Positions 15,108-48,049 of a stretch of 48,701 nucleotides of DNA are shown here, piece by piece. A program made the translations under genes and the position numbers. The stretch's first letter is position 1. Each line of letters begins with the position of its first letter. The stretch comes from Anaerolineaceae bacterium (lineage in GTDB: Bacteria > Chloroflexota > Anaerolineae > Anaerolineales > Anaerolineaceae). The notes below the pieces were generated by a model that ran no database searches, had not been told where the DNA came from, and was given only the letters and a program-made list of their open reading frames with translations. Location of the stretch: positions 1 through 48,701 of the forward strand of contig JAFGLU010000121.1 in NCBI GenBank assembly GCA_016927865.1, read 5' to 3'.

Positions 15108-15220
15108 GTAACTGCTCAGACAGAGGTGTAAGAGACCCAATTTTGATGTGTTGGTGGGGTGCTTCGCACCCCACCAACACATCAAAATTGGGAACTTTCT
15201 CCCACCCTCTAATTAGTTAC
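15108..15220 (+). mobile_element. Family A MITE-like palindromic element, copy 1
   Basis: 113 bp, ends GTAACTGCTCAG and CTAATTAGTTAC. A perfect 27 bp stem with TTC loop lies at 15136-15192 (starts CCCAATTTTGATGTG). It is flanked by AATAAACA (15100-15107) and AATCAACA (15221-15228), a 7/8 match that looks like an 8 bp target duplication. No coding capacity. Confidence 0.85.
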
Positions 15221-19659: not shown

Positions 19660-19771
19660 GCAACTACTCAGCCAGAGACGGAAGAAGTCTGAAATTAAAG
19701 CGTGTGTGGGGTGCTTGGCACCCCACACACGCTTTAATTTCAGGGATTTTTTCCACCCTCTGAGCCGTTAC
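19660..19771 (+). mobile_element. Family A MITE-like palindromic element, copy 2
   Basis: 112 bp, ends GCAACTACTCAG and CTGAGCCGTTAC. A perfect 26 bp stem with a TTG loop lies at 19689-19743 (starts CTGAAATTAAAGCGTG). The flanks CACGTCTA and GATTTCTA share the last four bases plus one other, a possible decayed 8 bp duplication. It lies between convergent genes. Confidence 0.8.
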
Positions 19772-24538: not shown

Positions 24539-24815
24539 TTGACAATGTCACTTTAAAATTTCGAGCTCGTGGCCCCACCCCCGCCCGCTACGCGACCCGC
24601 TGGCAAAATTACTCGCAAAATTCAACCCATGTGCGGGGAGGGAAAGAATTCTGCAAAAGAGAGGGGCTGAAAGCCCCTCTCTTTTGCAGAATTCTTTCCC
24701 TCCCCCGGCAAAACACTTAAGTGATTGAGAATCAAGGTGGCCGGGTCGCGCAGCAGGTAGGGTGGGGGTAACACCTGAGTTCGAAGGCCATAGCGTTTTA
24801 AAGTGACATTGTCAA
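24539..24815. mobile_element. Family C MITE, copy 1
   Basis: 277 bp with a perfect 20 bp terminal inverted repeat TTGACAATGTCACTTTAAAA / TTTTAAAGTGACATTGTCAA. Inside, 24635-24705 is a perfect 34 bp stem with a 3 base loop (core AGAGGGGCT-GAA-AGCCCCTCT). No transposase or other coding capacity. Flanks AGTAGT(T) and GGTAGA are a diverged version of the 6 bp AGTAGT duplication seen at copy 2. Confidence 0.85.
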
Positions 24816-27119: not shown

Positions 27120-28019
27120 ATGAACCTGCAAACACTCGCCAACACCCCCTTCAGCGTCGGCACCGCCATGTTCCTGGCGCGTGTCTCTCCGCCTGCGGTC
27201 GGGCATTGGCTGGCAGACCACATCGCAGCAATCCTGGCCTCCCGCACCCGTTCCGGGCTCGTCCAAACCATCCGTCAAAACCAGCAGGGCATCTTCGCCG
27301 GCCGCCTGAGCCCCGCAGAGCTCGATCAAGCTGTCGCAGCGGTGTTACGGCATGATCTCCGCAGCATCTACGACTACTACCACCTGGCCAACCAGCCCCA
27401 AAAATTGCTCACGCGGGTCACCTTCACCCCCGCTGCGCTGGCCGGCATGCAGCGCACCCAGCAAAACCTTCCCACCGTCTTTGCTTGCGCTCATCTCGGC
27501 AACTTCGACCTGATGGGCCGCGCCCTGGCCCTCAGCCACTACCCCTTTCTGGTGCTATCCTACCCCAACCCCAACCAGGGCTACAAAATGCAAAACTGGC
27601 TGCGTTCACGCTTCGGCCTTGAGGTTTCGCCCATGAATCTTGAGTCGCTGCGACTCGGAAAACAGCGCCTCAAATCCGGCGGCAGCGTCCTCACCGGCCT
27701 GGACCGCCCGCTGGCCAATCAGGGACTTCAAAAATACCAACCCCGCTTCTTCGGCAAACCCGCCAATCTGCCCGTGGCCTACATCCGCCTGGCCATGGAC
27801 ACCGGCACCCCCGTGATCGTGATTGCCTGCACCATCCAGCCCGATGGCAGCTACCGGTTGCACGCTTCAGCCCCCATCCAAATGAACTCCAGCGGCGATC
27901 TGCATGCCGACATCATCCACAATGCCGAAGCCGTTCTGGGCTTTGCCGAAGGACTCGTCCGACAGTATCACGATCAATGGCTTATGTTTTACCCCGTATG
28001 GGAAGGAGACGAAGAATGA
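27120..28019 (+). CDS. LpxL/HtrB-family lysophospholipid acyltransferase
   Basis: A 299-residue acyltransferase. The catalytic HX4D motif is HLGNFD (about 141-146 from this start). CAHLGNFDLMGRALAL and the later LTGLDRP and FFGKPANLPVAYIRLAMDTG fit the LpxL/PatA type. In Actinobacteria the relative PatA acylates phosphatidylinositol mannoside, and it sits beside a CDP-alcohol phosphatidyltransferase, as here. The ATG at 27120 is preferred: the GTG at 27066 lies within the terminator hairpin. Neither start has a good Shine-Dalgarno. The stop overlaps the next start (ATGA). Confidence 0.82.
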   Translation: MNLQTLANTPFSVGTAMFLARVSPPAVGHWLADHIAAILASRTRSGLVQTIRQNQQGIFAGRLSPAELDQAVAAVLRHDLRSIYDYYHLANQPQKLLTRVTFTPAALAGMQRTQQNLPTVFACAHLGNFDLMGRALALSHYPFLVLSYPNPNQGYKMQNWLRSRFGLEVSPMNLESLRLGKQRLKSGGSVLTGLDRPLANQGLQKYQPRFFGKPANLPVAYIRLAMDTGTPVIVIACTIQPDGSYRLHASAPIQMNSSGDLHADIIHNAEAVLGFAEGLVRQYHDQWLMFYPVWEGDEE

Positions 28020-28822
28020 CAAATCAAGCCCAAAGCAAACGGATCAACGACATCTTCTTTGGCCCGCTGGAACGACCCGCCCTACAATGGCTGGCCAAAC
28101 GCATGCCCGCCTGGGTCACCCCCGACACACTCACGTTGATCGGTCTCTTCGGCACCATCTTGATCTTTACTTCGTACGCCCTCACCGGATTCAGCAGGTA
28201 TTTCATCTGGCTGGCCAGCCTGGGCTATATCATCAACTGGTTCGGCGACAGCCTGGACGGCACCCTGGCCCGCTACCGCCACATCGAGCGTCCCCGTTAC
28301 GGTTTCATGCTCGATCACCTCGTTGATTGTTTCGGCTCGGTGCTCATCGTCCTCGGCATGGGCCTCTCCCCCTTTGTCAACTTCACCGTGGCCTCGCTGA
28401 CCTTGATCGCCTACCTGATGGTGTCCATCCTGGTTTATATTATAACCATCACCAACGGCGTCTTCCGCATCTCCAGCGGAAAAATCGGCCCCACCGAACT
28501 GCGGGTCTTCCTCATTCTGGCCAACACGGTGGCCTTCTTCTACGCGAAGCCGCTCTTCACCGTGGCCTTCGGCAGCTTCACCATCTTTGATGTGCTGCTG
28601 GCGGTCATGGGCCTGGCGCTGGTGGTCCTTTACGCGGTCAATTCCATCACTGAATCAGCCAGGCTGGCCGCCCTCGAACCCGCCACGGCCATCATCGCCC
28701 AACGCAAAGCCGAAGCCCGCCAGGCAAAGATCGAAGCCCTGACCCGCAAGAAAGCACGCCGCCAGTCTTCCAAGCGCACCCACGCATCCATCAGCACGGC
28801 GGTCTCTCACCGCTCGGGCTGA
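28016..28822 (+). CDS. CDP-alcohol phosphatidyltransferase
   Basis: A 268-residue membrane enzyme that transfers a phosphatidyl group from CDP-diacylglycerol to an alcohol. The family signature D-G-x2-A-R-x8-G-x3-D-x3-D is intact: DGTLAR then YRHIERPRYG then FMLD and HLVD (about 78-104). Several hydrophobic segments follow (SVLIVLGMGLSPFVNF, then LIAYLMVSILVYIITI, then FLILANTVAFFYAKPLFTVA, VLLAVMGLALVVLYAV). The C-terminus is strongly basic (AKIEALTRKKARRQSSKR). It starts by ATGA overlap with the acyltransferase. The alcohol cannot be read; inositol phosphate or glycerol phosphate are options. Confidence 0.88.
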   Translation: MTNQAQSKRINDIFFGPLERPALQWLAKRMPAWVTPDTLTLIGLFGTILIFTSYALTGFSRYFIWLASLGYIINWFGDSLDGTLARYRHIERPRYGFMLDHLVDCFGSVLIVLGMGLSPFVNFTVASLTLIAYLMVSILVYIITITNGVFRISSGKIGPTELRVFLILANTVAFFYAKPLFTVAFGSFTIFDVLLAVMGLALVVLYAVNSITESARLAALEPATAIIAQRKAEARQAKIEALTRKKARRQSSKRTHASISTAVSHRSG

Positions 28823-28846
28823 TTTCTTGCGTGGGTCGAAAAACCG

Positions 28847-28883
28847 CAAGACAGGCAGTTGTTAGGGCTGCCTGTCTTGTTTT
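28847..28883. terminator. Bidirectional terminator, partly within the ParB-like gene
   Basis: A 12 bp perfect stem CAAGACAGGCAG / CTGCCTGTCTTG with a 9 base loop, followed by TTTT. It ends the phosphatidyltransferase operon (+). Its right arm (28868-28879) codes for the last few residues (KQDRQP) of the ParB-like gene, and the TAA stop of that gene lies in the loop. Confidence 0.8.
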
Positions 28884-29308
28884 AAATTCATGTACGATCG
28901 CTGCTCTTCCGGGCTGTTGAACCACACGACCACCCAATAGCGTTCAACTCCGCTGCGGCGCAGCGCCGCGTAGCGGTGATTTCCATCCCGGATTGACAGC
29001 TTTCCAGCGTCGTAGCTGGCAATCAGCGGAGCGGGCTTCCAACCCTTTGCCAAACTGTCCGCCATGCTCGTCACGTGCCGCTCGAACCCGTCCGCGTCCA
29101 CCACGTATTCCAGGTCCGGGTCAGGCCCGCAGCAGATTTCCAGCGCATCCAGCGGAATCTCTAGCGGGCCCAACCAAAATCTCGGCTGACGCTTGAGCCC
29201 CTCGGAGAACGGCAGATTCCGCCCAACCCCCAGCAGGAATTCATGCACCCAGGCCTCAATCTGCCCGCGGCGCGCAGCTTCCAGGGCCGGGGTCAGTTCA
29301 TCGTTCAC
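28862..29308 (-). CDS. ParB/sulfiredoxin-like nuclease-fold protein
   Basis: A 148-residue protein with the ParB-N/sulfiredoxin-like motif LSIRDGNHRYAALRRSGVERY (about 104-124), which is the DGxHRxxA-type nucleotide-binding loop. The rest, including FLLGVGRNLPFSEGLKRQP and EIPLDALEICCGPDPDLEYVVD, matches small ParB-N-like proteins of unknown function. The stop codon sits inside the bidirectional terminator. No partition partner (ParA) is nearby, so a chromosome-partition role is not supported. Confidence 0.65.
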   Translation of the reverse strand: MNDELTPALEAARRGQIEAWVHEFLLGVGRNLPFSEGLKRQPRFWLGPLEIPLDALEICCGPDPDLEYVVDADGFERHVTSMADSLAKGWKPAPLIASYDAGKLSIRDGNHRYAALRRSGVERYWVVVWFNSPEEQRSYMNLKQDRQP

Positions 29309-29400
29309 AGAAATTACTCCTCCCTTTTACTTTCGATTTTGCTCATCTCGGTTGACGTTCTATCCGTTCCGACCGCGTCAACGCCCGAAGAACTTTTTTC

Positions 29401-29512
29401 GTAACTACTCAGCCAGAGGCGGAAGAGGCCCGAATTTGAGGTGTGTGTGGGGTGCTTCGCACCCCACACACACCTCAAATTCAGGGACTTTACCCACCCT
29501 TTGAGTAGTTAC
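29401..29512 (+). mobile_element. Family A MITE-like palindromic element, copy 3
   Basis: 112 bp, GTAACTACTCAG at the left and TGAGTAGTTAC at the right. A perfect 24 bp stem with a TTC loop lies at 29432-29482 (starts GAATTTGAGGTGTGTG). It is flanked by CTTTTTTC on both sides (29393-29400, and 29512-29519 if the last C is counted in), an 8 bp target duplication. Confidence 0.85.
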
Positions 29513-29523
29513 TTTTTTCAACG

Positions 29524-30108
29524 TCATGCAGAGCAAGCTTTCGGAGTATATCTGTTTGGAAATTCTCTTCTGGCCACTTCGGTGTGTTTATTTATGTACT
29601 GTCCTTTTGCTCCGGTATAACCATCCCGATCGAAAGTGAACTGACCTTTAAGTTTTTGTTTGAGTACTACATATTCATTGGCAATATCGGGATGAGCAAT
29701 TAAGTAATCCCGAAAGTAGAGTTCTCCCCAATCGCCAAGATGGCGGACATGAATATGCACTGCCTGGCCTTGAAATCCCTGCGGGGTGTAACCTTTAAGA
29801 TACATAATGATATCATCTTGGGGTGTATTGACAACGTAGCCTTCGTCTTTCATTCTTTCTGTTACGCTTTGCAAATCAATATCATCAGAGACTTCAAGCA
29901 AAATGTCAACCGTTGGTTTAGCAGTTAGACCGGGCACGGATGTGCTGCCAATATGGTTGATCCTGATCAGGTTTTTGCCAAAAATGGTTTCAAGAAACTT
30001 TTTTTCTTGAAGATAATACTCTGTCCATTGCGGATTAAATTCTTCAAGGAGAATTGGGAACAATTCCGCAAGTCTTTCTGCGGATACCTGCGAGAAATCT
30101 AATCTCAT
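29524..30108 (-). CDS. GrpB family protein (UPF0157)
   Basis: A 194-residue GrpB/UPF0157 member. The family motif HIGSTSVPGLTAKPTVDILL (about 53-72) is clear, then HIHVRHLGDWGELYFRDYL. GrpB proteins have a nucleotidyltransferase-like fold and no settled role. By eye it is much richer in A and T than all neighbours, with codons such as AAA, GAT and TTA, so recent transfer is likely. It has its own short, AT-rich leader. It is directly next to family A copy 3. Confidence 0.88.
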   Translation of the reverse strand: MRLDFSQVSAERLAELFPILLEEFNPQWTEYYLQEKKFLETIFGKNLIRINHIGSTSVPGLTAKPTVDILLEVSDDIDLQSVTERMKDEGYVVNTPQDDIIMYLKGYTPQGFQGQAVHIHVRHLGDWGELYFRDYLIAHPDIANEYVVLKQKLKGQFTFDRDGYTGAKGQYINKHTEVARREFPNRYTPKACSA

Positions 30109-30157
30109 AAAAACTCCAATTCCTATGAAAACAGTCTCCGAATTTTCGGACAGGTAC

Positions 30158-31393
30158 TTATTCTCTTGACATCAACACGATCGTCTCAACGTGATAAGTC
30201 TGGGGGAATAAATCGAAGGGCGTGATCTGCTCCAGCGCATATCCGCCTACCAGCAAGCGCTTGATATCCCGCGCCAGGGTAGCCGGATCGCAAGAAACAT
30301 ACACCAGAAGCGGCGACTGCATCGCAATGATCTCATCCAAAGCGGACCTTTCCAGGCCGGCTCGGGGCGGGTCCACCACCACCACGTCAGGATGCAAGTC
30401 CAGCCTTTGCAAAATCTCACCCGCCGGACCTTGATACAGCGCCACGTCTTCAAATTCATCCAGGTTCACGGCGAAATCTTCGCAGGCCGCCTCAGAAGCT
30501 TCCACGCCGGTCACCAACGCTCCCCGCTCGGCCAGGAAAGCACTGAACAACCCCACCCCGCAATACAGATCCAGCACGGTCTTCCCCGTCCATTCAGGAA
30601 CCAGGTTCAGCACGTGCTTGACCATCTGCTCCGCCTGGGGGATGTTGACCTGGAAGAACGACCCCGCGGAGACACGAAAGGCTCGTCCGTTCACCTCCTG
30701 GACAATGGCCTCGTCCCCAGCCAGCACCAGCGTGCCGCCCGGCCCCTGGTGCACCACCGAAACGGGCAGTTCTTCCACGCTCAACTCCGGAGCTTCCAGG
30801 GTGCTGCCTTCCAGCACCATCAGCAGGTCCGCGTTCGCGTCCGCGCCCGCACGCAGCCCCACGCGCTCCAGCCCCGGCACGGGCTCCAGGTCCAACTGCG
30901 GCCACAATTCGTTTAAAGCTGCCTCGGGCAGGTGGCACTCGCTGATCTCAACCACCTCGTTGCTCTCGCCCCGCTGAAAGCCCAGCTTGCCCGCCGGGCT
31001 GAGGTGAAACTGCACTGAGTTGCGGTAATTCCAGGCTTGCGGCGAGGGCACAATTGCTTGCACCGCGGGGTTCGCCACCCCGCCAATGCGCTCAATTTGG
31101 TCGCGTACCACAGCTTCCTTTGTCGCCAACTGATCGCTGTAATCCATGTGCTGGTAATGGCAGCCGCCGCAGGCGCCAAAATGCTTGCAACGCGGCTGAA
31201 TGCGATTCGCTGCCCCGCGCAGCACCTGCACCAGCTCGGCGCGCACAAAACCGCGTTTTTCCTCCACCACCCTGGCCAAAACACGCTCGCCGGGCAGCGC
31301 AAAAGGCACAAACACGGCCCGCCCGTCTTCCATGCGGCCCATCGCGGCCCCGCCATACACCAGAATTGTTAACTCAACCTCAAATTCATCCAT
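30158..31393 (-). CDS. rlmD: 23S rRNA (uracil-5-)-methyltransferase, RlmD/RumA type
   Basis: A 411-residue SAM-dependent uracil C5 methyltransferase. An N-terminal TRAM-like domain (about 1-58) precedes the iron-sulfur cysteines in CKHFGACGGCHYQH. The SAM region is LDLYCGVGLFSAFLAERG; then VVVDPPRAGLE; the nucleophile Cys is in VYVSCDPATLARD. These are the RlmD/RlmCD/TrmA group hallmarks; which uracil it modifies cannot be told. Shine-Dalgarno TAAGGAG precedes the ATG. It lies 23 bp after the HAMP-protein stop and is likely the last gene of the cyclase operon. Confidence 0.85.
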   Translation of the reverse strand: MDEFEVELTILVYGGAAMGRMEDGRAVFVPFALPGERVLARVVEEKRGFVRAELVQVLRGAANRIQPRCKHFGACGGCHYQHMDYSDQLATKEAVVRDQIERIGGVANPAVQAIVPSPQAWNYRNSVQFHLSPAGKLGFQRGESNEVVEISECHLPEAALNELWPQLDLEPVPGLERVGLRAGADANADLLMVLEGSTLEAPELSVEELPVSVVHQGPGGTLVLAGDEAIVQEVNGRAFRVSAGSFFQVNIPQAEQMVKHVLNLVPEWTGKTVLDLYCGVGLFSAFLAERGALVTGVEASEAACEDFAVNLDEFEDVALYQGPAGEILQRLDLHPDVVVVDPPRAGLERSALDEIIAMQSPLLVYVSCDPATLARDIKRLLVGGYALEQITPFDLFPQTYHVETIVLMSRE

Positions 31394-31416
31394 CTTACTC
31401 CTTACTTACGGGTTGC

Positions 31417-32238
31417 TCAACGAATCTTAACCCGAATTTCCTCTGCCTCTTGACGGAGCAGCGTGGTGCGCTGTTCCACAGCATTGGCCATCCCGGCAAA
31501 TTCTCCGGCCATGTAGCCGATTTCATCATCGCGCCCGACCAATTTCTTCAGCGCCTGTTCTTCCACTTTTCCAGCAAGCAAACCTCCGGCAGCCTCGGTA
31601 AGCGTTTCCAACGGGCGATTGATCTGATTGTAAATCATCCACGCCACCGCCACCGCCAGCGCCAGGAAGATCAGCGGGGCCACAATGCTGCCAATCCAGG
31701 CCACCCCATTCAGCGTGTCCACCTGCGCATTGGCATCGTCCAGATAATCGGTTGAACTCTGCGTGACAGCATCCAGGCTCTCGTACATGCCAGGAATATG
31801 CTGATAGACTTCATCATCCAGGGCTACCACCCGCTCCCAATCTTCGGCCAGAACGGCTTGCTCAATCTGCCCGACCAACGGAACCAGCGCGAAACGCCCT
31901 TGTTCGTACGCATCGAGTGCGGAGATCTCTTCCTCGATCATTTGCGGGCGCAAGTTTTCAACCATATCTTCCATCCGCGAAGCATACCCCGTGGCCCGCT
32001 GCAGGTTTGCATCCGAGCCGTTGGCCTCGTAATAGTTCAAAGCCTGCTCGAACTGCTGAGTCACGCCTACCAAACGGTAGACCTGCCGGTTCAGTTCAAA
32101 GGCGGCCTGGGCCTGGTTGTGCAAGCCCACCATGCGCACGGCATTATACAGGAAAAAGGCCAGCACCACCACGCTGAAGGCGAATAAAATCGTGAACGTC
32201 CCAAACAATTTGGACTGCAAACTTCCGCGCGTTTTCAT
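31417..32238 (-). CDS. Two-helix membrane protein with HAMP-like domain, no output domain
   Basis: A 273-residue protein laid out like the sensor half of a chemoreceptor. TM1 spans about 11-33 (LFGTFTILFAFSVVVLAFFLY); a helical extracellular region follows (about 35-178); TM2 spans about 180-203. The HAMP-like segment (about 204-257: NQINRPLETLTEAAGGLLAG) ends in a short charged tail. It has no methyl-accepting, kinase or cyclase domain. It starts by ATGA overlap with the next upstream gene, and those two plus the cyclase are all of the same build. A partner that feeds signals into the cyclase is a fair inference. Confidence 0.7.
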   Translation of the reverse strand: MKTRGSLQSKLFGTFTILFAFSVVVLAFFLYNAVRMVGLHNQAQAAFELNRQVYRLVGVTQQFEQALNYYEANGSDANLQRATGYASRMEDMVENLRPQMIEEEISALDAYEQGRFALVPLVGQIEQAVLAEDWERVVALDDEVYQHIPGMYESLDAVTQSSTDYLDDANAQVDTLNGVAWIGSIVAPLIFLALAVAVAWMIYNQINRPLETLTEAAGGLLAGKVEEQALKKLVGRDDEIGYMAGEFAGMANAVEQRTTLLRQEAEEIRVKIR

Positions 32239-33158
32239 TGCTTGCCTCCTTGCCGCTCATCCCGGAACAGCTTTAACCGCCTCCGCCGTGATTCGTACAA
32301 CTGCGCGCGCAGCGACTCAATTTCATTTTTCAAGCCCGCGTCCCGCGCCTGCACTCCCGCCGCCAGCTCATTCAACGCCCGCGCCAGATTGCCCGCCGGG
32401 CCGCCTTTCTTCAACAGCCCGCCCAATAGTTCCGGGCGGTACTGATCGCCGCCAATGGCCGTGGTGGCATTGGCCAGATCGCTCAATGGGCGGGTGGTGG
32501 CTGAAATGCGCTGGTATCCCAACAAAGCCAGCACAATCACAACTGCAAAGCCAAGCGCGGCCCACTGCACGCCAATATTGGCGTCACTTGGAAAGTCCAT
32601 GGCGGCATATACGCGGTGTTCCTCCACCCAGTCAATCAGCTCTTTGAGCTTGGCGTTCAACTCATCATTCTGGTCAGCCGCTTCTTCTTCCAAAACCCAG
32701 GCACTTTCCAGGTCGCCCGCATCGTACGCGGCAACGATCTGGTCAAAAGTGGCCCGGTGCGTGCTGCGCAGTTCGTTGAATTCGGCAATCAACGAATCCG
32801 GCGAATACACCTCGTCCTCGTACTCGACCGGCTCGAAATAGCCGTAGTCTTCCATCTCGGCCAACGCCTCGCCGATGGCTGCATCTTCGGCCAGCGCATC
32901 GTCCAGGTGCGATTGAGCATCCAGTTCATACTCTCTTGAGTACACATAGAAAGACTCGCTGGTTTGCATAGCGCCCAACCGTTGAGAAATGTTGCCCTCC
33001 AACTCGGTCAAGGCATATACCTTTTCCATCTCTGTGTCAAAAGGCACGGAGCCCTGGCTGAAAGAAGCAAATTCGATCACCCCCGCCATCAGCAGGATGA
33101 TCACCCCCAGCCATCCCAGGGTGCCCAGCGCTTTGATTGGTGCAAAAAGTTTCTTCAT
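32235..33158 (-). CDS. Two-helix membrane protein with HAMP-like domain, paralogue of the cyclase input half
   Basis: A 307-residue protein. TM1 is about 12-31 and TM2 about 197-215, with a Glu/Asp-rich extracellular helical region between (EMEDYGYFEPVEYEDEVYSP). The cytosolic part (about 216-307) has a HAMP-like segment including QYRPELL (239-245), like TYRPEML of the cyclase, then a basic helical tail (SRRRRLKLFRDERQGGKQ). No enzymatic output. ATG 33158 is chosen because CGGAGG lies 6 bp upstream; a longer in-frame start at 33386 would run through the cyclase gene. It starts 13 bp after the cyclase stop. Confidence 0.72.
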   Translation of the reverse strand: MKKLFAPIKALGTLGWLGVIILLMAGVIEFASFSQGSVPFDTEMEKVYALTELEGNISQRLGAMQTSESFYVYSREYELDAQSHLDDALAEDAAIGEALAEMEDYGYFEPVEYEDEVYSPDSLIAEFNELRSTHRATFDQIVAAYDAGDLESAWVLEEEAADQNDELNAKLKELIDWVEEHRVYAAMDFPSDANIGVQWAALGFAVVIVLALLGYQRISATTRPLSDLANATTAIGGDQYRPELLGGLLKKGGPAGNLARALNELAAGVQARDAGLKNEIESLRAQLYESRRRRLKLFRDERQGGKQ

Positions 33159-33171
33159 CGTGCGCCTCCGC

Positions 33172-34836
33172 TTATTTGCTTTCCATGACAATTGCGCCAT
33201 TCCAGTCGGACGGCAGCGGGCGATCCACCCGGTCAGCGCACTGCTCCAGGTACACCCTGGCGGTCTTATCACTGGGGTCTTGGGCCAGAACACGGTCAAA
33301 GGCCAGCCCTGCCTCGCGGAGCTTGCCCTGCGCAAACAACGCCACGCCTTGCTCAAAGTCGGCGCGGGTTTCTTCCCGCCGGGCAATCACCTCTCTGCTC
33401 AACCCATCCAGTATCTCGTACAAACCCAGCGGGTCCACCCGTCCTTTCACCACGGCCTTACCCAGGTAACGCAAGCGATAGTTCACCGGCTGGGGCAATT
33501 GGTCCAGCGTGTCCTGCGAGATGATCATGGACGTGCCGTAGAATTTATTCAACCCCTCAATGCGCGAGGTCAGGTTCACGTTGTCCGAGAAGGCATCGCC
33601 TTGCATGCGCAGGCTCTCGCCGATCATTCCCACCATCATCGGCCCGGTGTGAATACCAATCCCCACCGAAATCGGCCCCAGCCCGTGCGCCTTGATCCGC
33701 TCGTTAAACTGCTGCACCGCCATTTCCTTCTCAATGCCCGCCTTCACGGCGTCATCCACCCCGTAAGGGAAAATGGCCATCATGCCATCGCCCAAAAACT
33801 TAACGATAAAGCCTTCATGCTTCTGGATCAACGGGCTGACCAACTCCAGATATTCGTTGACAAAGTCGAAGTTTTGTTTGGCCGTCATGCCTTCTGACAT
33901 GCTGGTGAAGCCGCGAATATCCGAAAACATAACTGCCATCTCCGCGCTCACATGGTCGCCCAATTGCACATCGGTGATGCTCGGTTTCTCCAGGAACTCC
34001 AGGTACTGCACCGGGATGAAGCGTTTGGCCGCCGTAAGGAACTGCTCCTTCGTGCGATTTGACGCGCTGATCGACTCCGCCATACCCCCCACCGCTCGCG
34101 CCAGGCTGCCCAAATCATCGGGCCGCGCCTGGTGTCGCCGGAGCATTTCCGGCCGGTAGGTGTTGTTCTCAAAGGCCACCACCGCCGAGGTCAACCCGTC
34201 CAGCGGCTCAGAGATGTTCAAGGTCACGTACACTCCCCACACCACCAGCGCCGCCGCCAGAACCAGCACCACCATGCCGGTGATGGCGTTGGTTTGAGTG
34301 CGGTCTTCCAGGGTCGCCATATGGTCCCTCAAAAATTGAACATCCCACGCATTCAGGTTCTGCACTTCGTTTTCCAACCGCGCTGCGGCAGGGTCCACTT
34401 CATCGATCAGTAAAGCGGCAGTTTCCGATCCCAAATCACCGTTCCAGGCCTTATCAATGAATTGGTCTCGGGCAGCTTCCCAGACCTCCAGGCTGCTGTT
34501 CAGACCCACCAGTTCTTCGTCTGGCCAAGCCAACCACTGGGAATAGGCATATTCAGAAATATCTTCCTGGTAGCGAAATTCGTCGCCGAAATCTTTCACC
34601 CCGCTGTCATCGCTAAGCAGCATGTTCTTCATGGCAAGTTGATTTTTTAGTACTGCTGCTCGCGCATCAGCATGCTGCTCCAGCGAAACCGTCAGGTCTT
34701 TCAGGTAGGCAAGCTCTTCCTGCATGGCAGCCGCGTTAATCACGCTTACCACCGCGGTGACCACCGCCAGAAGGGCCAGCGCGCCGGTCAAAACGGCGAT
34801 CCTGGCCTGGGTCGTTTTAAACTGAAACCATTTCAT
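33172..34836 (-). CDS. Class III adenylate/guanylate cyclase, membrane-bound, with C-terminal TPR-like region
   Basis: A 554-residue cyclase. TM1 is about 13-35, an extracellular helical sensor spans 36-185, and TM2 about 187-205, followed by a HAMP region with TYRPEML (226-232). The catalytic domain is about 298-440. Metal-binding D306 (SDIRGF) and D350 (FLGDGMM) are present; K346 and D418 are at the positions that specify adenine, and N421 and R425 stabilise the transition state. It looks like a functional adenylate cyclase, with dimerisation required. A TPR-like tail spans about 488-535. Shine-Dalgarno AGGGAG precedes the ATG. It heads a likely operon with the two HAMP proteins and rlmD. 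Confidence 0.88.
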   Translation of the reverse strand: MKWFQFKTTQARIAVLTGALALLAVVTAVVSVINAAAMQEELAYLKDLTVSLEQHADARAAVLKNQLAMKNMLLSDDSGVKDFGDEFRYQEDISEYAYSQWLAWPDEELVGLNSSLEVWEAARDQFIDKAWNGDLGSETAALLIDEVDPAAARLENEVQNLNAWDVQFLRDHMATLEDRTQTNAITGMVVLVLAAALVVWGVYVTLNISEPLDGLTSAVVAFENNTYRPEMLRRHQARPDDLGSLARAVGGMAESISASNRTKEQFLTAAKRFIPVQYLEFLEKPSITDVQLGDHVSAEMAVMFSDIRGFTSMSEGMTAKQNFDFVNEYLELVSPLIQKHEGFIVKFLGDGMMAIFPYGVDDAVKAGIEKEMAVQQFNERIKAHGLGPISVGIGIHTGPMMVGMIGESLRMQGDAFSDNVNLTSRIEGLNKFYGTSMIISQDTLDQLPQPVNYRLRYLGKAVVKGRVDPLGLYEILDGLSREVIARREETRADFEQGVALFAQGKLREAGLAFDRVLAQDPSDKTARVYLEQCADRVDRPLPSDWNGAIVMESK

Positions 34837-34944
34837 CGTTTTTTCTCCCTGGGTCGATTGAAGGGACTATTATTCGGGGGGTCGACAGACGAATTGTCAT
34901 GCTCCATTATAAATGCGAGTGCTTTCAGCCCCGCACTCATGTGC

Positions 34945-34973
34945 ATGACATTCCTTTGCAAAATGCTTACAAT
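34945..34973 (+). promoter_or_regulatory. Predicted promoter abutting family A copy 4
   Basis: -35 ATGACA (34945-34950), 17 bp spacer, -10 TACAAT (34968-34973). Start near 34980, within the first bases of the family A element (34978). The message for the 35159 gene would carry the element as a leader. Confidence 0.45.
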
Positions 34974-34977
34974 ACAA

Positions 34978-35085
34978 GTAACTACTCAGCCAGAGGTGGA
35001 AGAGGCCCGAATTTGAGGTGTGTGGGGTGCTTCGCACCCCACACACCTCAAATTCGGGAACTTTCACCACCCTCTGAGCAGTTAC
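34978..35085 (+). mobile_element. Family A MITE-like palindromic element, copy 4
   Basis: 108 bp, ends GTAACTACTCAG and CTGAGCAGTTAC. A perfect 25 bp stem with a TTC loop lies at 35006-35058 (starts CCCGAATTTGAGGTG). It is flanked by CAATACAA (34970-34977) and CAATACAA (35086-35093), an exact 8 bp target duplication. This copy defines the element's ends. Confidence 0.92.
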
Positions 35086-35158
35086 CAATACAATCAAACG
35101 CAGCAGGAGGATACTTTCCGCCTGCCTGACATTCTACAACCACTTGAAGGATCGCCTC

Positions 35159-36760
35159 ATGACCGAAATTCGCTCTCCCCAACGCCTGTGGCTGGTTGCC
35201 CTCATCATCGCCTGGGCCGTCGATTTGCTCTTCTGGAACACCCCCGCTGGGGTATCTTACCTTATCTGGATCACCCTGGGCACGGTGGGCATGTTTGCCC
35301 TGGCTCTCAGCGAAGGCCGCCGTCCGCCGGCATCCTCCTATGTGCTGGCGGCAGTCAACCTGGCCCTGGCAGCCACCCTGCTCCTGCGCAGCGAGCCGTT
35401 CACCTGCTTCCTGGGCGGGTTCATCTCTTTAATCGGCAGCGGTATGCTGGCCATGACCCTCACCACCGGGCATTGGCTGCGCTTCCGCCTGGGCGACATC
35501 ATCATCGCCATGCTGACGATGGTTGCCTCGGGTGTCGTGCGCGGTGGCGAACTACTCACCCGGCGGGCTGCCTCGACTGAATCCGGCGCTGTGGCCTCCA
35601 CGAGCAAGGGCGGCACCCGCCGGCATTTTTTCCCCATAATTCGCGGCTTGCTATTGGCCCTGCCGGTGGTCGCGGTGCTGGCGGCTTTGCTGGCCTCCGC
35701 CGATCTAGTCTTCGCCGAGCGGCTGGAGGGCTTGCTGGACGTTTTCAAACTGGACAACCTCGCCGAATATCTCTTCCGCCTCGGTTATATCCTGGTTCTC
35801 ACCTACGCCTTCGCCGGGCTGCTGGCGCAAGCCCTCTCACCCAAAGGCTCCACCGAAGCACCCAACCCTCACGAACCCTGGAAGGCGCGCTTCCTTGGTT
35901 CCACCGAGACCTTTATCATCCTTGGCAGCGTGGTGGCCCTGTTTGTCTTCTTCCTGGCCATCCAGCTCCAATACCTGTTTGGCGGGCAAGCCAACATCAC
36001 CGCCGCGGGTTTCACCTACTCCGACTATGCTCGCCGCGGATTCTTTGAGCTGGTAGCAGTGGCTATTCTCAGCCTGAGCCTGTACCTGCTCCTCAGCACC
36101 ATCACCCGCCGCACTGAATCCCGCCAGCAAACGACCTTCAGCGGGCTTTCCATCCTGCTCATCGCCCTGGTGCTGGTCATCCTCGTCTCGGCCCTGCAGC
36201 GCCTGCTGCTCTATGAACAGGCTTACGGCTTCACTCGCCTGCGCACCTATACACATATCTTCATCCCCTGGCTGGCGCTGCTCTTGCTGGTCACCATCAT
36301 CCTCGAGGCTCTGCGCCGCCCCGGCCACTTCGGCCTGGCTCTGGTGATGTGCGTGTTCGGCTTCAGCTTCACCTTCACCCTCATCAACGTAGACAGCCTC
36401 ATCGCCCGCCTCAACCTCGACCGCGTCCGCGCCGGGCAGGTGGTGGAGTCTGAAAATTTGCGTGGCGAAGCCGACCTGGACGCCCGCCACCTGACAGACC
36501 TCTCCGCCGATGCTGTGCCGGTCATTGCTGCCGCTTATGGCGACTCGCGTTACGACGCGGAAACCCGCAACCAGCTTGGCGCGGTGCTGGCCTGCCACAG
36601 CCTGAAACTGGATGACGACCCCGATTGGCGCTCCTTCCGCATCCCCGAGGCCACCGCCCGCGCCGCCCTGGGGCGCATAGACCTGTCCGAGTATATTGAG
36701 GGCGAAAGCGTCTCGCTCAACGGCGAATCGTTCCCATGCTACTGGGAGTACATGGATTAA
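35159..36760 (+). CDS. DUF4173-type multi-pass membrane protein
   Basis: A 533-residue membrane protein. About eleven hydrophobic segments are seen, starting WLVALIIAWAVDLLFW, then LAAVNLALAATLLLRS. The segment FRLGYILVLTYAFAGLLAQAL and ITAAGFTYSDYARRGFFELV (a conserved YxxYxRxGFxEL motif) match the DUF4173 family. The last 130 residues are soluble and Asp-rich (SENLRGEADLDARHLTDLS, DSRYDAETRNQLGAVLA). Function is unknown. ATG 35159 has GAAGG 9 bp upstream; a TTG at 35144 is less likely. Family A copy 4 lies 73 bp upstream. Confidence 0.78.
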   Translation: MTEIRSPQRLWLVALIIAWAVDLLFWNTPAGVSYLIWITLGTVGMFALALSEGRRPPASSYVLAAVNLALAATLLLRSEPFTCFLGGFISLIGSGMLAMTLTTGHWLRFRLGDIIIAMLTMVASGVVRGGELLTRRAASTESGAVASTSKGGTRRHFFPIIRGLLLALPVVAVLAALLASADLVFAERLEGLLDVFKLDNLAEYLFRLGYILVLTYAFAGLLAQALSPKGSTEAPNPHEPWKARFLGSTETFIILGSVVALFVFFLAIQLQYLFGGQANITAAGFTYSDYARRGFFELVAVAILSLSLYLLLSTITRRTESRQQTTFSGLSILLIALVLVILVSALQRLLLYEQAYGFTRLRTYTHIFIPWLALLLLVTIILEALRRPGHFGLALVMCVFGFSFTFTLINVDSLIARLNLDRVRAGQVVESENLRGEADLDARHLTDLSADAVPVIAAAYGDSRYDAETRNQLGAVLACHSLKLDDDPDWRSFRIPEATARAALGRIDLSEYIEGESVSLNGESFPCYWEYMD

Positions 36761-36780
36761 TCTGCTTGACGAGGATCGTA

Positions 36781-36832
36781 GTGCCAGCAGCAGTAGTGGC
36801 AGTTCATGAACTGCCACTACTGCTGCTGGCAC
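36781..36832. repeat. Perfect 52 bp palindrome, family B
   Basis: Centred between 36806 and 36807, with the TTCATGAA core and a GTGCCAGCAGCAGTAGTGGC half-site. Each half contains a CAG-type triplet run (CAGCAGCAG). It is the longest of the four family B copies. Confidence 0.88.
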
Positions 36833-36841
36833 CACAGCCGG

Positions 36842-36897
36842 TTCGCCGAAAGCGCTGATTTGGGTTAAAATAGCTTTCAATAGCCGCTTTGCGGCTA
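36842..36897 (+). promoter_or_regulatory. Weak promoter and leader hairpin of the small-protein/flippase operon
   Basis: -10 TAAAAT (36866-36871) with a poor -35 TTCGCC 18 bp upstream (36842-36847). Just downstream is a perfect 7 bp hairpin TAGCCGC-TTT-GCGGCTA (36881-36897), without a T tract. The start would be about 36878. Confidence 0.4.
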
Positions 36898-36925
36898 AAA
36901 GTAATTGCCTGATAGGAGTAAGTGA

Positions 36926-37057
36926 ATGGCTCAGCCCAAACAGACAAAGAAAGGCATGTCCACCGAGCAGCGCGCTTTGCGCCGCAATCAGATCATCTGG
37001 GTATCCCTCTCTGGCATCATTATTCTAACCATGCTCATCTCGCTCATCCGGTTCTAA
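36926..37057 (+). CDS. Small membrane protein, 43 residues
   Basis: An ATG-to-TAA frame of 43 codons: a basic, Gln/Lys-rich N-terminus (MAQPKQTKKGMSTEQRALRR) followed by a hydrophobic helix about residues 23-41 (IIWVSLSGIIILTMLISLI). A Shine-Dalgarno ATAGGAG stands 7 bp upstream. It ends 5 bp before the flippase-like ATG, so coupling is likely. A single-pass helix with positive N-terminal charges predicts N-in topology. No family recognised. The overlapping +1/+2 frame that runs into the next gene lacks a ribosome site and is not favoured. Confidence 0.7.
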   Translation: MAQPKQTKKGMSTEQRALRRNQIIWVSLSGIIILTMLISLIRF

Positions 37058-37062
37058 ACACC

Positions 37063-38079
37063 ATGCTCAAACGCTGGCAGTTCTGGGTCGGCCTGCTCAT
37101 CAGCGCCTTCTTCCTTTACATCTCGCTGCGCAACCTCGAACTAGGTGAGGTATGGGAGACGATGAAGACCGCCAAATACCTGTGGCTCATCCCTGGCGTG
37201 GCGGTTTACTTTATTGGCGTGTGGGTGCGCTCCTGGCGCTGGCACTACATGCTGCGCCCGCTCAAAAAGATCCCCGTGCGCACCATGTTCCCCATCGTCT
37301 GCATCGGCTACATGGGCAATAACATCTATCCGGCCCGCGCCGGCGAGGTGCTGCGCGCCGTCATCCTCAAACAGCGCGAGGGCGTGCCCGTCTCGGCCTC
37401 GCTAGCCACGGTCATCGTCGAGCGCATCTTCGACGGCGTGGTTATGCTGGCGTTTGTCTTCGTCAACCTCACCGAACTGGCCCGCCTGACCCACGACTCG
37501 GGCATCATCGCCAATCTCGATATCCGCACCGTGGCTATCATCGGCACGGTGGCTTTCGTCGGCGCGCTGTTGGTGTTCCTGCTCGCCGCCATGTTCCCCC
37601 GGACCACTGAGCACTTACTGGACGTATTCCTGCGCCTCGTCCCTGAACGCTTCCGCGTCAAAACGCGCGACATTGCCATGCGCTTCCTCACCGGTCTCGA
37701 GTCCCTGCGCTCGCCCGCCGATGTGCTGATGATCTTCGTCACCACCGTCATCATCTGGCTGCTCGAAACCGCCAAGTACTGGTTCGTCATGCACGCCTTT
37801 GACTTCTCGGTCGGTTTCTTCGGTCTCATGCTGATGAACGGCATCGTCAACCTCATGACCACCCTGCCTTCCGCGCCCGGTTATGTGGGCACCTTTGACG
37901 CCCCCGGCATCGCCGTGCTGCAGGCTTACGGCGTGCCCGGTGAAATCGCCGCCGGATATACGCTTGTTTTGCACGCAGCGCTGTGGTTCCCCATCACTCT
38001 CCTGGGCGCCTACTATTACCTCCGCCAGCCGCTGCGCTGGGGCAAGGATATAAAAGCCGAATCAGCAGCCACCCCTTGA
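37063..38079 (+). CDS. Lysylphosphatidylglycerol synthase TM-type flippase-like protein (UPF0104/AglD-like)
   Basis: A 338-residue multi-pass membrane protein. FWVGLLISAFFLYISLRNLE, then YLWLIPGVAVYFIGVWVRSWRWHYMLRPL, then GNNIYPARAGEVLRAVIL, ERIFDGVVMLAFVFVNL fit the UPF0104/flippase-like family related to the membrane half of MprF and AglD. Members are linked with lipid-linked sugar or lipid transfer; the actual cargo is unknown. ATG 37063 is the start: it is 5 bp after the small-protein stop and the frame before it would overlap that gene. The FAD oxidoreductase follows 29 bp on. Confidence 0.83.
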   Translation: MLKRWQFWVGLLISAFFLYISLRNLELGEVWETMKTAKYLWLIPGVAVYFIGVWVRSWRWHYMLRPLKKIPVRTMFPIVCIGYMGNNIYPARAGEVLRAVILKQREGVPVSASLATVIVERIFDGVVMLAFVFVNLTELARLTHDSGIIANLDIRTVAIIGTVAFVGALLVFLLAAMFPRTTEHLLDVFLRLVPERFRVKTRDIAMRFLTGLESLRSPADVLMIFVTTVIIWLLETAKYWFVMHAFDFSVGFFGLMLMNGIVNLMTTLPSAPGYVGTFDAPGIAVLQAYGVPGEIAAGYTLVLHAALWFPITLLGAYYYLRQPLRWGKDIKAESAATP

Positions 38080-38108
38080 ACTTCGCCAGCCCCTCGAAAG
38101 GATCAATC

Positions 38109-39428
38109 ATGACCAACACCCCTCATGTCGCCGTCATTGGAGCCGGAATCGGTGGAATGGCCGCCGCCTATGATCTGCGGCGCGCCGGGTTCCAGGTCAC
38201 CATCTTCGAAGCCGCCGACCAGGTGGGCGGCCTTGCCTCGGGGTTCAAAGAACCCCACTGGGATTGGTCTGTGGAGCGTTTTTACCACCATTGGTTTCAA
38301 TCCGACAACCAAATGCTCGGCTTGATCAATGAACTGGGTTGGAGCGACAAGGTTCTCTTCCCCTTGCCCAAAACCGTGGTGTACGCCAAGGGCGGCTTCC
38401 ACCCCCTCGACAGCCCCCTGGCCGCCCTCACCTTCCCCGGCTTCACCTTCCCCGATATGGTCCGTTTCGGCCTGGTCACCGTCTACCTGCGTTACCTCTC
38501 TTCCTGGCAATCTCTGGAACGATTCCGCGCCGATGAATGGATCCGCAAGTATTACGGCAAGAACCTTTACGCTTCCTTCTTCGAGCCCATGCTGGTGGGC
38601 AAATTTGGCCCGCACTACCAGGACGTCAACATGGCCTGGATGTGGGCGCGCCTGAAGACCCGCACCACCCGCCTGGGCACCTTCCAGGGCGGCTTCCAGG
38701 CCTTCTGCGACCTGTTCGCCGAGCGGCTGCGCCAGGACGGCGTGGAGATCCGCCTTTCTACCCCCATCCAGCATATTGAACCCCTCCCAGAAAGCGGCTT
38801 GCGCATCGACCTGCCCGACGGCGCGCAGGAATTCACTGCCTGCCTGTCCACCACTTCGCCCGGCCTCATGGCCCGCCTGACCCCCACTCTGCCCCCCGAT
38901 TACCTCAACGGGCTGCTTTCGCTCAAGAATATGGGCGCAGTGGTCATGGTGCTGGCCCTCAAGCAGCAGCTTTCCCGCGAGGGTTACTATTGGTACAACA
39001 TTCCCAAAGCCGCCGGGTTCCCCTTCCTGGCGCTGGTCGAACACACCAACTACCTCAAGCCTGAATACTTCGGTGGCGATCACATCATCTACTGCGGCGA
39101 CTATCTCGACCAGGGGAACGAATACTTCAGCCTCAGCCAGGATGAATTGCTCCAACGCTTCATGCCAGCCCTGGCCCGCATCAACCCCGAATTTTCCCCC
39201 GATTGGGTGCGCAAGACCTGGTTGTGGAAAACCCAATACGCCCAGCCCATTCCCCTGGTCAATCACTCCCGCAACATCCCCGATCTGCGCACGCCCATCC
39301 CCGGTTTATACTTCGCCTCGATGAGCCAGGTATACCCTTGGGACCGCGGCACCAACTTCGCCGTCGAGATCGGCCGGCGGGCTGTTCAGCGAATGTTAAG
39401 TGAGATTCCGCTCTCTTTCAAAAATTGA
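38109..39428 (+). CDS. NAD(P)/FAD-dependent oxidoreductase (amine oxidase/protoporphyrinogen oxidase-like)
   Basis: A 439-residue flavoprotein. The N-terminal dinucleotide-binding motif is VIGAGIGGMAAAYDLRRAG (GxGxxG at about 11-16), followed by FEAADQVGGLASGF, the usual Glu and GG motif of the amine oxidase/phytoene desaturase superfamily. The C-terminal FAD motif reads TPIPGLYFASMSQVYPWDRGTNFAVEIGRRA. Relatives near glycosyl or lipid genes are often uncharacterised. Shine-Dalgarno AAAGGA precedes the ATG at 38109. It is the last gene of the small-protein/flippase operon; the substrate may be a sugar- or lipid-linked compound (inference). Confidence 0.85.
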   Translation: MTNTPHVAVIGAGIGGMAAAYDLRRAGFQVTIFEAADQVGGLASGFKEPHWDWSVERFYHHWFQSDNQMLGLINELGWSDKVLFPLPKTVVYAKGGFHPLDSPLAALTFPGFTFPDMVRFGLVTVYLRYLSSWQSLERFRADEWIRKYYGKNLYASFFEPMLVGKFGPHYQDVNMAWMWARLKTRTTRLGTFQGGFQAFCDLFAERLRQDGVEIRLSTPIQHIEPLPESGLRIDLPDGAQEFTACLSTTSPGLMARLTPTLPPDYLNGLLSLKNMGAVVMVLALKQQLSREGYYWYNIPKAAGFPFLALVEHTNYLKPEYFGGDHIIYCGDYLDQGNEYFSLSQDELLQRFMPALARINPEFSPDWVRKTWLWKTQYAQPIPLVNHSRNIPDLRTPIPGLYFASMSQVYPWDRGTNFAVEIGRRAVQRMLSEIPLSFKN

Positions 39429-39521
39429 GACATGACTCTACGAAAACGCCGCGCGAAGGAGATTCTTTTCTTTTGGATTAGCCCCCGCATTTATGGAACA
39501 TTTGACCAAAATTTAATAATT

Positions 39522-39539
39522 ACCACCATATATGGTGGT
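39522..39539. promoter_or_regulatory. 18 bp perfect palindrome upstream of dnaA, possible operator
   Basis: ACCACCATA / TATGGTGGT, centred between 39530 and 39531, in an AT-rich area about 140 bp before the dnaA promoter. Short perfect palindromes of this size are typical of dimeric repressor sites; nothing links it to a particular regulator. Confidence 0.4.
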
Positions 39540-39678
39540 GTCGGGGAGCGGCAAACCTCACTAGTAGAATTTGCCAGTAGCAATTTTCATGCCGCAGATT
39601 AACAATTGTTTTGCTGATTCTTTAACATAACCAACCTTAAAAATTCAAAAATTTTTAGGCGGGCGTAGGCTATTCGCC

Positions 39679-39707
39679 TTGTTTCTCGGGCGGCTTTTTG
39701 TTAGAAT
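39679..39707 (+). promoter_or_regulatory. Predicted promoter of dnaA
   Basis: -35 TTGTTT (39679-39684), 17 bp spacer, -10 TAGAAT (39702-39707). Start near 39714, giving a leader of about 150 nt. Confidence 0.6.
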
Positions 39708-39790
39708 ACCCTTACGCTGAAGTGATGGCAAATCCTTCTCGCCCACAATCAATTTGATAACAGGCAGAAACGAATAACGGGTCGACTTTT

Positions 39791-39815
39791 CCCGCTGCAA
39801 AACCATTGCAGCGGG
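39791..39815 (+). terminator. Hairpin in the dnaA leader (possible attenuator)
   Basis: Perfect 10 bp stem CCCGCTGCAA / TTGCAGCGGG with loop AACCA, followed by TTTGT. It lies in the leader between promoter and ATG. The T tract is short, so it may pause or control rather than stop transcription. Confidence 0.5.
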
Positions 39816-39867
39816 TTTGTATCCCTGTTTGCCCCAACACAGCAAATTCAACCTGGAGGGATAGGGC

Positions 39868-41211
39868 ATGAATCCACAACAGGCATGGCAGGCAACTCTG
39901 GGCCAGCTCCAGATGGAAATGTCAAAAGCAGCTTTTGACACCTGGGTACGTAATGCTGAGTTCGTATCGTACGAGAACAATACCTTCCGCATCGGTGCGC
40001 AGAACGCCTACGCTCGCGACTGGCTCGACAGTCGTTTGAGCAGCACGGTGGCGCGCATGCTCACCGGGCTGATGGGCGCTACCCAATCCGTCGAATTTGT
40101 TGTCTGGCACTTTGAAGAAGAGACTCTGCCCGCCGAACCTGCTGCCGAAACCCTCCCCAACGAACCCGCCCCCCGCGGCAACGCCACCATCAACCCGCGC
40201 TACACCTTTGAAAACTTCGTGGTCGGGGCCAGCAACCGCCTGGCACATGCCGCCTGTATGGCCGTTGCTGAAAACCCCGCCCGTGCCTACAACCCTCTCT
40301 TCCTCTATGGAGGCGTGGGGCTAGGCAAAACCCATCTCCTTCATGCCATCGGCAACGCCGCCCACAAGCGCAACCTCACCGTGATGTACGTCTCGTCGGA
40401 AGAATTCACCAACGACCTGATCAACTCGATCCGCACGCACAACACCACTGCCTTCCGCGAACGCTACCGGCGCATCGATGTACTCCTGATCGACGACATC
40501 CAGTTCATCGCCGGCAAGGAATCGACACAGGAAGAATTCTTTCACACCTTCAACACCCTTCACGGTCAGGACAAGCAAATCGTCATGTCCTCCGACCGCC
40601 CTCCCAAGGCCATGATCACCCTGGAAGAGCGCTTGCGCTCACGCTTCGAGTGGGGCCTTACCGCCGACATCCAGCCGCCCGACCTCGAGACTCGCATGGC
40701 CATTCTGCGCTCCAAAGCCGAGCGCAACAACCGCCAGGTGCCCAGCCCCCTCATCGAGACCATCGCCCGCCTGGTACAGTCCAACATCCGCGAGCTGGAA
40801 GGCGCCCTGACCCGCATCATGGCCTTTGCCGAGCTCTCCGGTCAGCCCATCACCAACCAGCTCATTCAAACCGCCCTGGCCGACTTGCTGCCGCAGCGCA
40901 GCTCGCTCGAAACCAGCCAGGTGCTGGAAGCCGTGGCCTATATCTTCGGCATCTCCACCGACGAACTGGTCGGTCGCAGCCGCACGCACGACATCGCCCT
41001 GCCTCGCCAGGTGGCCATGTACCTGATGCGCGAAGAAGTCAACGCCTCGCTGCCCCAAATTGGCGAAGCCCTGGGCGGCCGCGACCACACCACGGTCATG
41101 TACGCCTGTCAAAAGGTCGCCGACATGATCGAACGCGACGACCGCCTCCGCCGGCAGGTCATCCAAATCCGCGAGAAGCTCTACGGGCGTTCTATGCCCG
41201 TTATGGTTTAG
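39868..41211 (+). CDS. dnaA: Chromosomal replication initiator protein DnaA
   Basis: A 447-residue DnaA that opens the replication origin. Domain I is about 1-75 (PQQAWQATLGQLQMEMSKAAFDTWV). The linker is short. Domain III: Walker A GGVGLGKT (148-155), Walker B VLLIDDIQFIAGK, sensor region SSDRPPK, box VII RSRFEWGL. Domain IV: the DnaA signature GGRDHTTVMYACQKV (about 407-421) binds DnaA boxes. Shine-Dalgarno TGGAGGGATAGGGC precedes the ATG. The usual neighbour dnaN is absent; RNase J follows, with a family C element between. Confidence 0.98.
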   Translation: MNPQQAWQATLGQLQMEMSKAAFDTWVRNAEFVSYENNTFRIGAQNAYARDWLDSRLSSTVARMLTGLMGATQSVEFVVWHFEEETLPAEPAAETLPNEPAPRGNATINPRYTFENFVVGASNRLAHAACMAVAENPARAYNPLFLYGGVGLGKTHLLHAIGNAAHKRNLTVMYVSSEEFTNDLINSIRTHNTTAFRERYRRIDVLLIDDIQFIAGKESTQEEFFHTFNTLHGQDKQIVMSSDRPPKAMITLEERLRSRFEWGLTADIQPPDLETRMAILRSKAERNNRQVPSPLIETIARLVQSNIRELEGALTRIMAFAELSGQPITNQLIQTALADLLPQRSSLETSQVLEAVAYIFGISTDELVGRSRTHDIALPRQVAMYLMREEVNASLPQIGEALGGRDHTTVMYACQKVADMIERDDRLRRQVIQIREKLYGRSMPVMV

Positions 41212-41237: not shown

Positions 41238-41261
41238 GTAACTGCTCATTGGGTGAGTAGT
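41238..41261 (+). mobile_element. Family A remnant interrupted by a family C element
   Basis: GTAACTGCTCA, TTGGG, TGAGTAGT: the two ends of family A brought together without the inner palindrome. The right end resumes after the family C element as AGTAGTCAC (41534-41542). The flanks ATAATTCT and AAAATTTA share 5 of 8 bases, a possible eroded 8 bp duplication. Confidence 0.6.
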
Positions 41262-41533
41262 TTGACAATGTCACATTAAAAACAATATAACTTCCGAGCT
41301 TCGGTATTGCCCCCACCCTGCCTGCTGCCCGACCTGGCGGCCAAGATGATCAATAAGTCAAGCGTTTTACCGGGGAAGGGAAAGAATTTCGCAAAAGAGA
41401 GGGGCTGAAAGCCCCTCTCTTTTGCGAAATCTTCTCCCCTCCCCGCCCCTGAACCAAAATTTTGCATGTTTTTTCCAGCGGGGAGGGGCGGGGGTGGGGC
41501 CACATGCTCGAAGATAGAATGTGACATTGTCAA
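41262..41533. mobile_element. Family C MITE, copy 2
   Basis: 272 bp, inverted ends TTGACAATGTCACATT / AATGTGACATTGTCAA (16 bp perfect), flanked by an exact AGTAGT duplication (41256-41261 and 41534-41539). It has an internal hairpin similar to copy 1 but with CGCAAAAGAGAGGGGCT-GAA-AGCCCCTCTCTTTTGCG. It is inverted relative to copy 1: its right arm matches copy 1's left arm in reverse complement. Confidence 0.88.
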
Positions 41534-41558
41534 AGTAGTCACAAAATTTATTGCGATT

Positions 41559-46477: not shown

Positions 46478-46539
46478 GTAACTAGATTCTCGAATTTGAG
46501 GTGTGTGGGGTGCTTCGCAGCCCACACACCTCAAATTCG
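46478..46539 (+). mobile_element. Truncated family A element, copy 5
   Basis: GTAACTA followed after a few bases by the inner palindrome CGAATTTGAGGTGTGTGG...GAATTCG-type at 46491-46539, stem with one G-G mismatch at 46510/46520 and a TTC loop. The right end (AGTTAC) is not recognised. It lies between divergent genes. Same orientation as the other copies. Confidence 0.75.
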
Positions 46540-46550
46540 GGCTTCGGCGG

Positions 46551-46580
46551 TTAGCAATTCATTGCCAAATCAGATATACT
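46551..46580 (+). promoter_or_regulatory. Predicted promoter of the beta-propeller lipoprotein gene
   Basis: -35 TTAGCA (46551-46556), 18 bp spacer, -10 TATACT (46575-46580). Start near 46587. A Shine-Dalgarno CTGGAGG follows before the ATG at 46610. Confidence 0.45.
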
Positions 46581-48020: not shown

Positions 48021-48049
48021 GGAATACCTTTCTCCTTTCTCCTTTTTCC

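Follow-up and report, generated by a model that had tools for sequence, protein, structure and literature searches.

Among described mobile elements, the nearest counterparts of the repeat family considered here are insertion sequences of the IS66 family. One of them, the ISBst12-group element ISDge4 of Deinococcus geothermalis, is described as having terminal inverted repeats GTGACTACTCAGCA and GTAACTGCTCAGCA and an 8-bp repeat, and its transposition has been observed (PMC12898284). Other reports give IS66 itself GTAAGCG ends and 8-bp repeats (PMC11946415) and state that classical IS66 elements typically contain several ORFs (PMC3281130). The family described here, termed family A, resembles ISDge4 and the ISBst12 group in its GTAACTGCTCAG end, in its 8-bp duplication and in the single transposase ORF of the autonomous relatives that we found. 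It differs from ISDge4, with which it was compared at the ends alone, in having no transposase and in having its autonomous relatives in the order of the host. With classical IS66, family A shares the GTAA start and the 8-bp duplication, but GTAA is followed by CTRCTCAG in family A and by GCG in IS66, and the autonomous relatives have one ORF rather than several. Like bacterial MITEs in general, family A is short, has terminal inverted repeats and target duplications, is present in many copies and shares its ends with an IS, whereas its central hairpin of about 50 nt, with co-varying arms and a loop that occurs in both orientations, sets it apart. Homogenisation of arms and inversion of the spacer are a footprint of template switching, and the change from ttc to gaa has a counterpart among inverted repeats corrected in this way; however, the cases described in these reports concern yeast genes and RNA genes, while here the repeats are multi-copy mobile elements in which the target duplication supplies a clock (PMC8604942, PMC8794818). 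Within the open-licence literature consulted, no earlier description of such MITEs driven by IS66 was found. We regard family A as a novel MITE family of an established type, with a probable IS66/ISBst12-type partner, and its natural copies allow arm correction and loop inversion to be timed against the decay of the target duplication.

The window, by which we mean the whole analysed stretch of 48,701 nucleotides from an Anaerolineaceae bacterium, contains several copies of family A, all on the plus strand and located between long ORFs. The focal copy 4 (108 bp, subfamily A1, 34978..35085) has the ends GTAACTACTCAG and inverted GTAACTGCTCAG. As an earlier note made from the letters alone had stated, flank comparison places it between identical 8-bp target duplications, to which no strand is assigned, reading CAATACAA on the left (34970..34977) and on the right (35086..35093). 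Copy 1 (113 bp, 15108..15220) is flanked by AATAAACA and AATCAACA, and the 7/8 match given for it previously is confirmed. Copy 3 (112 bp, 29401..29512) had been credited with CTTTTTTC on both sides, which is correct for the left flank; the strict 8-mer on the right is TTTTTTCA, a 5/8 match, and the claimed exact duplication is off by one base because the right-hand CTTTTTTC takes in, as if it were flank, the terminal C of the element's GTTAC. Our guess is that the mismatch reflects a one-base loss in this terminal GTTAC. Copy 2 (112 bp, 19660..19771; ends GCAACTACTCAG and inverted GTAACGGCTCAG) has the flanks CACGTCTA and GATTTCTA, which match at 5/8 positions by eye, and a degraded, internally deleted fifth copy (about 46478..46555, limits set by eye) keeps the hairpin, both of its ends being mostly deleted. 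The end motif GTAACTRCTCAG, already given in the earlier note, occurs nine times in the window at up to one mismatch, compared with a mean of 0.11 in shuffled sequence, and two of the nine matches (at 37607 and 41238) are not ends of full copies. The statement that the window lacks a transposase held for the ten ORFs at 27977-41211, none of which matched a transposase family; the other ORFs of the window were covered only by the IS66 search of the whole assembly, which found none. Two of the ten scanned ORFs have no Pfam match, and DnaA gives an additional match to the IstB ATPase model.

The genome as a whole yielded 72 distinct copies, defined by one exact end, a second end with at most three mismatches and a distance of 40-200 bp between the ends. 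They were drawn from loci around 100 of the 108 exact motif places and from BLAST matches, a procedure from which ends cut by contig edges drop out; of the 12 single ends among the places listed, 10 lie at a contig end or close to one. The copies span 44-170 bp (56 of them 108-113 bp) and none has a transposase of its own. Since the earlier note had made its proposal dependent on duplications at further copies, we compared all flanks, picking right ends blind to the flanks: the 8-bp flanks are identical in 30/72 copies and differ by at most one base in 51/72, leaving 21 with two or more mismatches. A previous count that favoured flank-supported right ends gave the same 30 and 51. When flanks were paired between different copies, 0/5112 pairs were identical and 7/5112 had seven matches, and other duplication lengths gave no exact match at 9-12 bp and at most two each at 3-7 bp. 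Together with the IS66/ISBst12 elements that have the same ends (see below), these counts support the proposal of a non-autonomous element of about 110 bp moved in trans by an enzyme that makes 8-bp duplications. Family A could also be read as REP/BIME-like palindromes or as a structural RNA family with coincidental duplications, as might be suggested by its strong central hairpin, its high copy number and its location between long ORFs in the window; set against this are the exact duplications in 30 of 72 copies and in none of 5112 controls, and an Rfam scan of the window in which the matches at gathering thresholds are three tRNAs only. To our knowledge REP/TnpA-REP palindromes have no target duplication, a feature in which family A departs from them, and we give this reading practically no credence.

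Elements too short for the central hairpin also have exact 8-bp duplications, as seen in derivatives of 47, 47, 47 and 58 bp in the own genome and in elements of 41 and 59 bp in G029, a genome of the same order, so that the hairpin seems not to be needed for movement. Two of the 47-bp derivatives (L243 on contig C99 and L252 on contig C115) have the same internal junction, one base apart, and different exact 8-bp duplications. The right end of both reads GTAACACC, from which it appears that the short form may itself have moved.

The motif GTAACTRCTCAG occurs in the own genome 108 times exactly, versus 0 for the reversed pattern, and 275 versus 24 times at up to one mismatch. Counting the own genome and its relatives, 16/41 genomes contain it exactly, with the highest numbers in G029 (122), the own genome (108), G005 (27), G031 (17) and G027 (14). 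The genomes of the same genus have four (G001), one (G003) or none (G002 and G004), and the remaining genomes with a match have 1-3 each, which is near the level of the reversed control. The MITEs of G029, G031 and G027 have the 12-bp ends of family A and different interiors, suggesting that about 12 bp of end sequence are sufficient for mobilisation; among the fetched loci, exact 8-bp duplications are present in 7/15, 4/9 and 2/6 elements of these genomes, respectively. Single exact matches to GTAACTRCTCAGGCTGGTG were observed in Enterobacter, Leptospiraceae, Erwinia and Bacteroidetes records (L144, L149, L151 and L153). A further record (L143) has a matching end, beside which a search for an adjacent transposase found none, and UBA6668, reached through L148, gave no match to the window stretch.

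A full-length insertion sequence with family A ends, which the earlier note had suggested looking for, was sought in related genomes and found in the form of elements that measure about 1.5-1.6 kb and contain a single IS66-family frame. When 301 genomes were searched with a G029 peptide homologous to the C-terminal stub of the own genome (see below), 32 genomes gave matches at E values up to 0.5. Most of these were weak, with only G000, G029, G247, G284 and G300 at E values of 0.01 or below; the elements of G106, G148, G198, G265, G298 and G229 were weak in this peptide search but gained confirmation from their frames, ends and Pfam matches. Four elements have two ends. L189 (G148, 1569 bp) has GTAACTGCTCAG at both ends, a 498-codon open frame and flanks matching at 0/8 positions; L186, from a genome (G198) of the window's own taxonomic family, is 1545 bp long with GTAACTACTCAG at both ends, a longest frame of 372 codons and 2/8 matching flanks; L188 (G265, 1604 bp) has GTAACAACTCAG ends, 527 codons and an exact 8/8 duplication, TAAAAATC; and L191 (G106, 1473 bp) has GTAACTACACAG ends and 450 codons and lies at a contig end, so that its flanks are not comparable. 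Matching flanks are thus found in L188 only. Both termini of L189 and L186, and the right one of another element, L185, carry the motif GTAACTRCTCAG, and in L189 and L188 a single ORF nearly fills the element, with no tnpA/tnpB. All six proteins match the Pfam DDE_Tnp_IS66 domain (PF03050), with E values from 8e-45 to 2e-48 for L189, L185, L188 and L190, 4e-47 for L186 and 1e-41 for L191, and the NCBIfam IS66 transposase model (NF033517) was matched by L189 (2e-95) and L188 (4e-87). The sequence common to MITE and IS amounts to only about 12-14 bp. A search of nine relatives for PF03050 gave matches in two (G026 and G029); the G029 element (L061, contig C248) was considered as a partner and rejected, being an IS66 element with an exact 8/8 duplication, CTCAATTT, but with different ends, GTAACCGTTCAG.

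We infer with confidence that an IS66-family transposase of the single-ORF ISBst12 type moves the MITEs of family A in trans. Such a transposase would recognise the 12-bp ends GTAACTRCTCAG and take up whatever sits between them; the element would then be joined to target DNA whose strands are cut 8 bases apart, and repair would yield the 8-bp duplication.

In the own assembly (84.5% complete, 147 contigs) neither a PF03050 search nor an alignment of five related transposases gave any match, an absence that lost multi-copy elements may explain, and the same searches found no IS66 transposase body in G005, G027 and G031, though MITE ends are present there. At several contig starts the sequence lies 84-99 bp into an element, as is usual for assemblies broken at repeats. 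Two contigs of the own genome, C63 and C64, begin with the same 87-bp stub, which is unlike the MITEs and encodes the C-terminus DVLQMAVSGSPFVPPFLQARLDSPA, with the stop codon inside the end motif. The peptide of this stub is identical to a G247 peptide at 18/25 positions, and the G247 peptide to the C-terminus of L189 at 21/36. A 100-aa bridge fragment from G247 had no Pfam match above cut-off, a Pfam search with either C-terminal peptide gave no match, and a 29-aa query against plasmids found nothing. When left ends bearing the flank of C63 or C64 were sought in the own genome, 29 places emerged at up to two mismatches. None of the 29 is a left end carrying the C63 flank, and one is the start of C90, which reads ACATATTC-GTTACTGCTCAG and is not a MITE end; its 84-bp stub can be aligned, as far as the ATG, with autonomous elements at their left ends, and the left end on C90 reads GTTA. 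Given this alignment, the position of both ends at contig starts and the 8-bp flank ACATATTC common to C90 and C64, an IS66 element with an unassembled body very probably lies between these two contigs in the own genome. That this element encodes an IS66 transposase is suggested by the DNA of its ends and by a C-terminal stretch of about 25 residues. A GTTAC right end, the same variant as the left end of the own IS, is found in 10/14 copies of subfamily A2.

Several transposase families make 8-bp duplications, ISL3, IS1595 and IS256 being candidates, and one of these could in principle have moved family A instead. The duplication length would fit, as would the absence of an IS66 body from the own assembly and from G005, G027 and G031, but IS66 transposases are what the full-length elements with the identical 12-bp ends encode, and the own genome has the two ends of a related IS66-type element, which makes a mover from another family very unlikely.

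The centre of copy 4 is a perfect hairpin (35006..35058, plus strand), with 25-bp arms at 35006-35030 and 35034-35058 and a TTC loop at 35031-35033, and as single-stranded DNA the whole copy folds at -44.5 kcal/mol (z -12.5). Perfect 25-bp arms are found in 39 of the 56 copies of 108-113 bp, and in the same 56 copies the subterminal 16 bp differ within a copy at a mean of 9.7 positions. Relative to the consensus of each subfamily, in A1 (33 of 42 copies used) 78 positions are changed in both arms, all 78 in a complementary manner, and 11 in one arm, where 8.5 and 150 would be expected under independence; in A2 (12 of 14 copies used) 14 are changed in both arms, all complementary, and five in one arm, with 0.9 and 31 expected. 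This expectation assumes independent sites and copies, and kinship inflates the raw counts; the nine A1 and two A2 copies left out had a low orientation score or more than eight differences from the arm consensus, a possible register shift. Because related copies are counted repeatedly, we also give distinct changes, of which 28 in A1 (16 private to one copy) and 11 in A2 (nine private) are paired, and 10 and five, respectively, affect a single arm. Among 52 copies whose flanks match at 5/8 positions or better, flank pairs differ at 36/416 sites versus 25/1300 for arm pairs (Fisher p 4e-9), a comparison in which setting the arms at their best-pairing position introduces a slight bias toward pairing. 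The loop reads TTC in 22 A1 and seven A2 copies and GAA in 17 and six (four have other loops), and both orientations occur within five of six groups of copies that share a 20-bp stretch of arm.

It is most likely that replication template switching keeps the hairpin arms matched. We lean towards a self-correcting palindrome, in which template switching after each insertion keeps using one arm to rewrite the other and inverts the 3-base loop; the copies would then be a natural archive of quasipalindrome correction in an Anaerolineales genome, timed by the target duplication of each. Selection for a function of the hairpin, as a terminator, as RNA structure or as a fold employed during transposition, is a less likely source of the pairing, though one with observations in its favour: the 39 perfect copies, the long elements of G031, all eight of which have 24 or 25 of 25 arm matches, and the lack of a clear rise of arm mismatches with flank decay. 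Selection on pairing alone, however, does not predict a loop in both orientations, as template switching does; exact duplications also flank the hairpin-less copies, and at most 15/25 arm matches, by a gap-free measure, are found in 11/13 same-end elements of G029 and 4/6 of G027.

Stretches of the same-genus genomes G001, G002 and G004 that were examined for empty sites have no paired ends and differ in gene order. For the gene that lies downstream of copy 4, the stretch next to its orthologue in G001 and G004 is not a clean empty site, as gene order differs and identity is about 70%, and a joined-flank search with all 72 copies, run against the fetched loci, matched their own loci only, giving no empty site. 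In G001 (L220 2304-2404, contig C70) a single end-like motif, GTAACAGCTCAG, is present close to the orthologue of a gene situated beyond copy 3; behind it come a different, GC-rich stretch resembling a hairpin and a second, weak end, and the whole is possibly a decayed relative in the same genus.

Other repeats were observed in the window. A second palindromic family (24538-24802 and 41262-41534) has TTTGACAATGTCAC ends and a near-perfect central hairpin, and both copies adjoin, by eye, family-A-like sequence (24500-24537 and 41238-41261), which suggests nested insertion. One of them directly follows the dnaA gene (39868-41211, Pfam Bac_DnaA), near which a replication origin may lie. A third family consists of short palindromes such as CGTAGGTGCAATTCATGAATTGCACCTACG (12860-12896, 24465-24501 and 47990-48026), and short repeats at 12- or 18-base spacing are located at 3886-4035 within a long minus-strand ORF.
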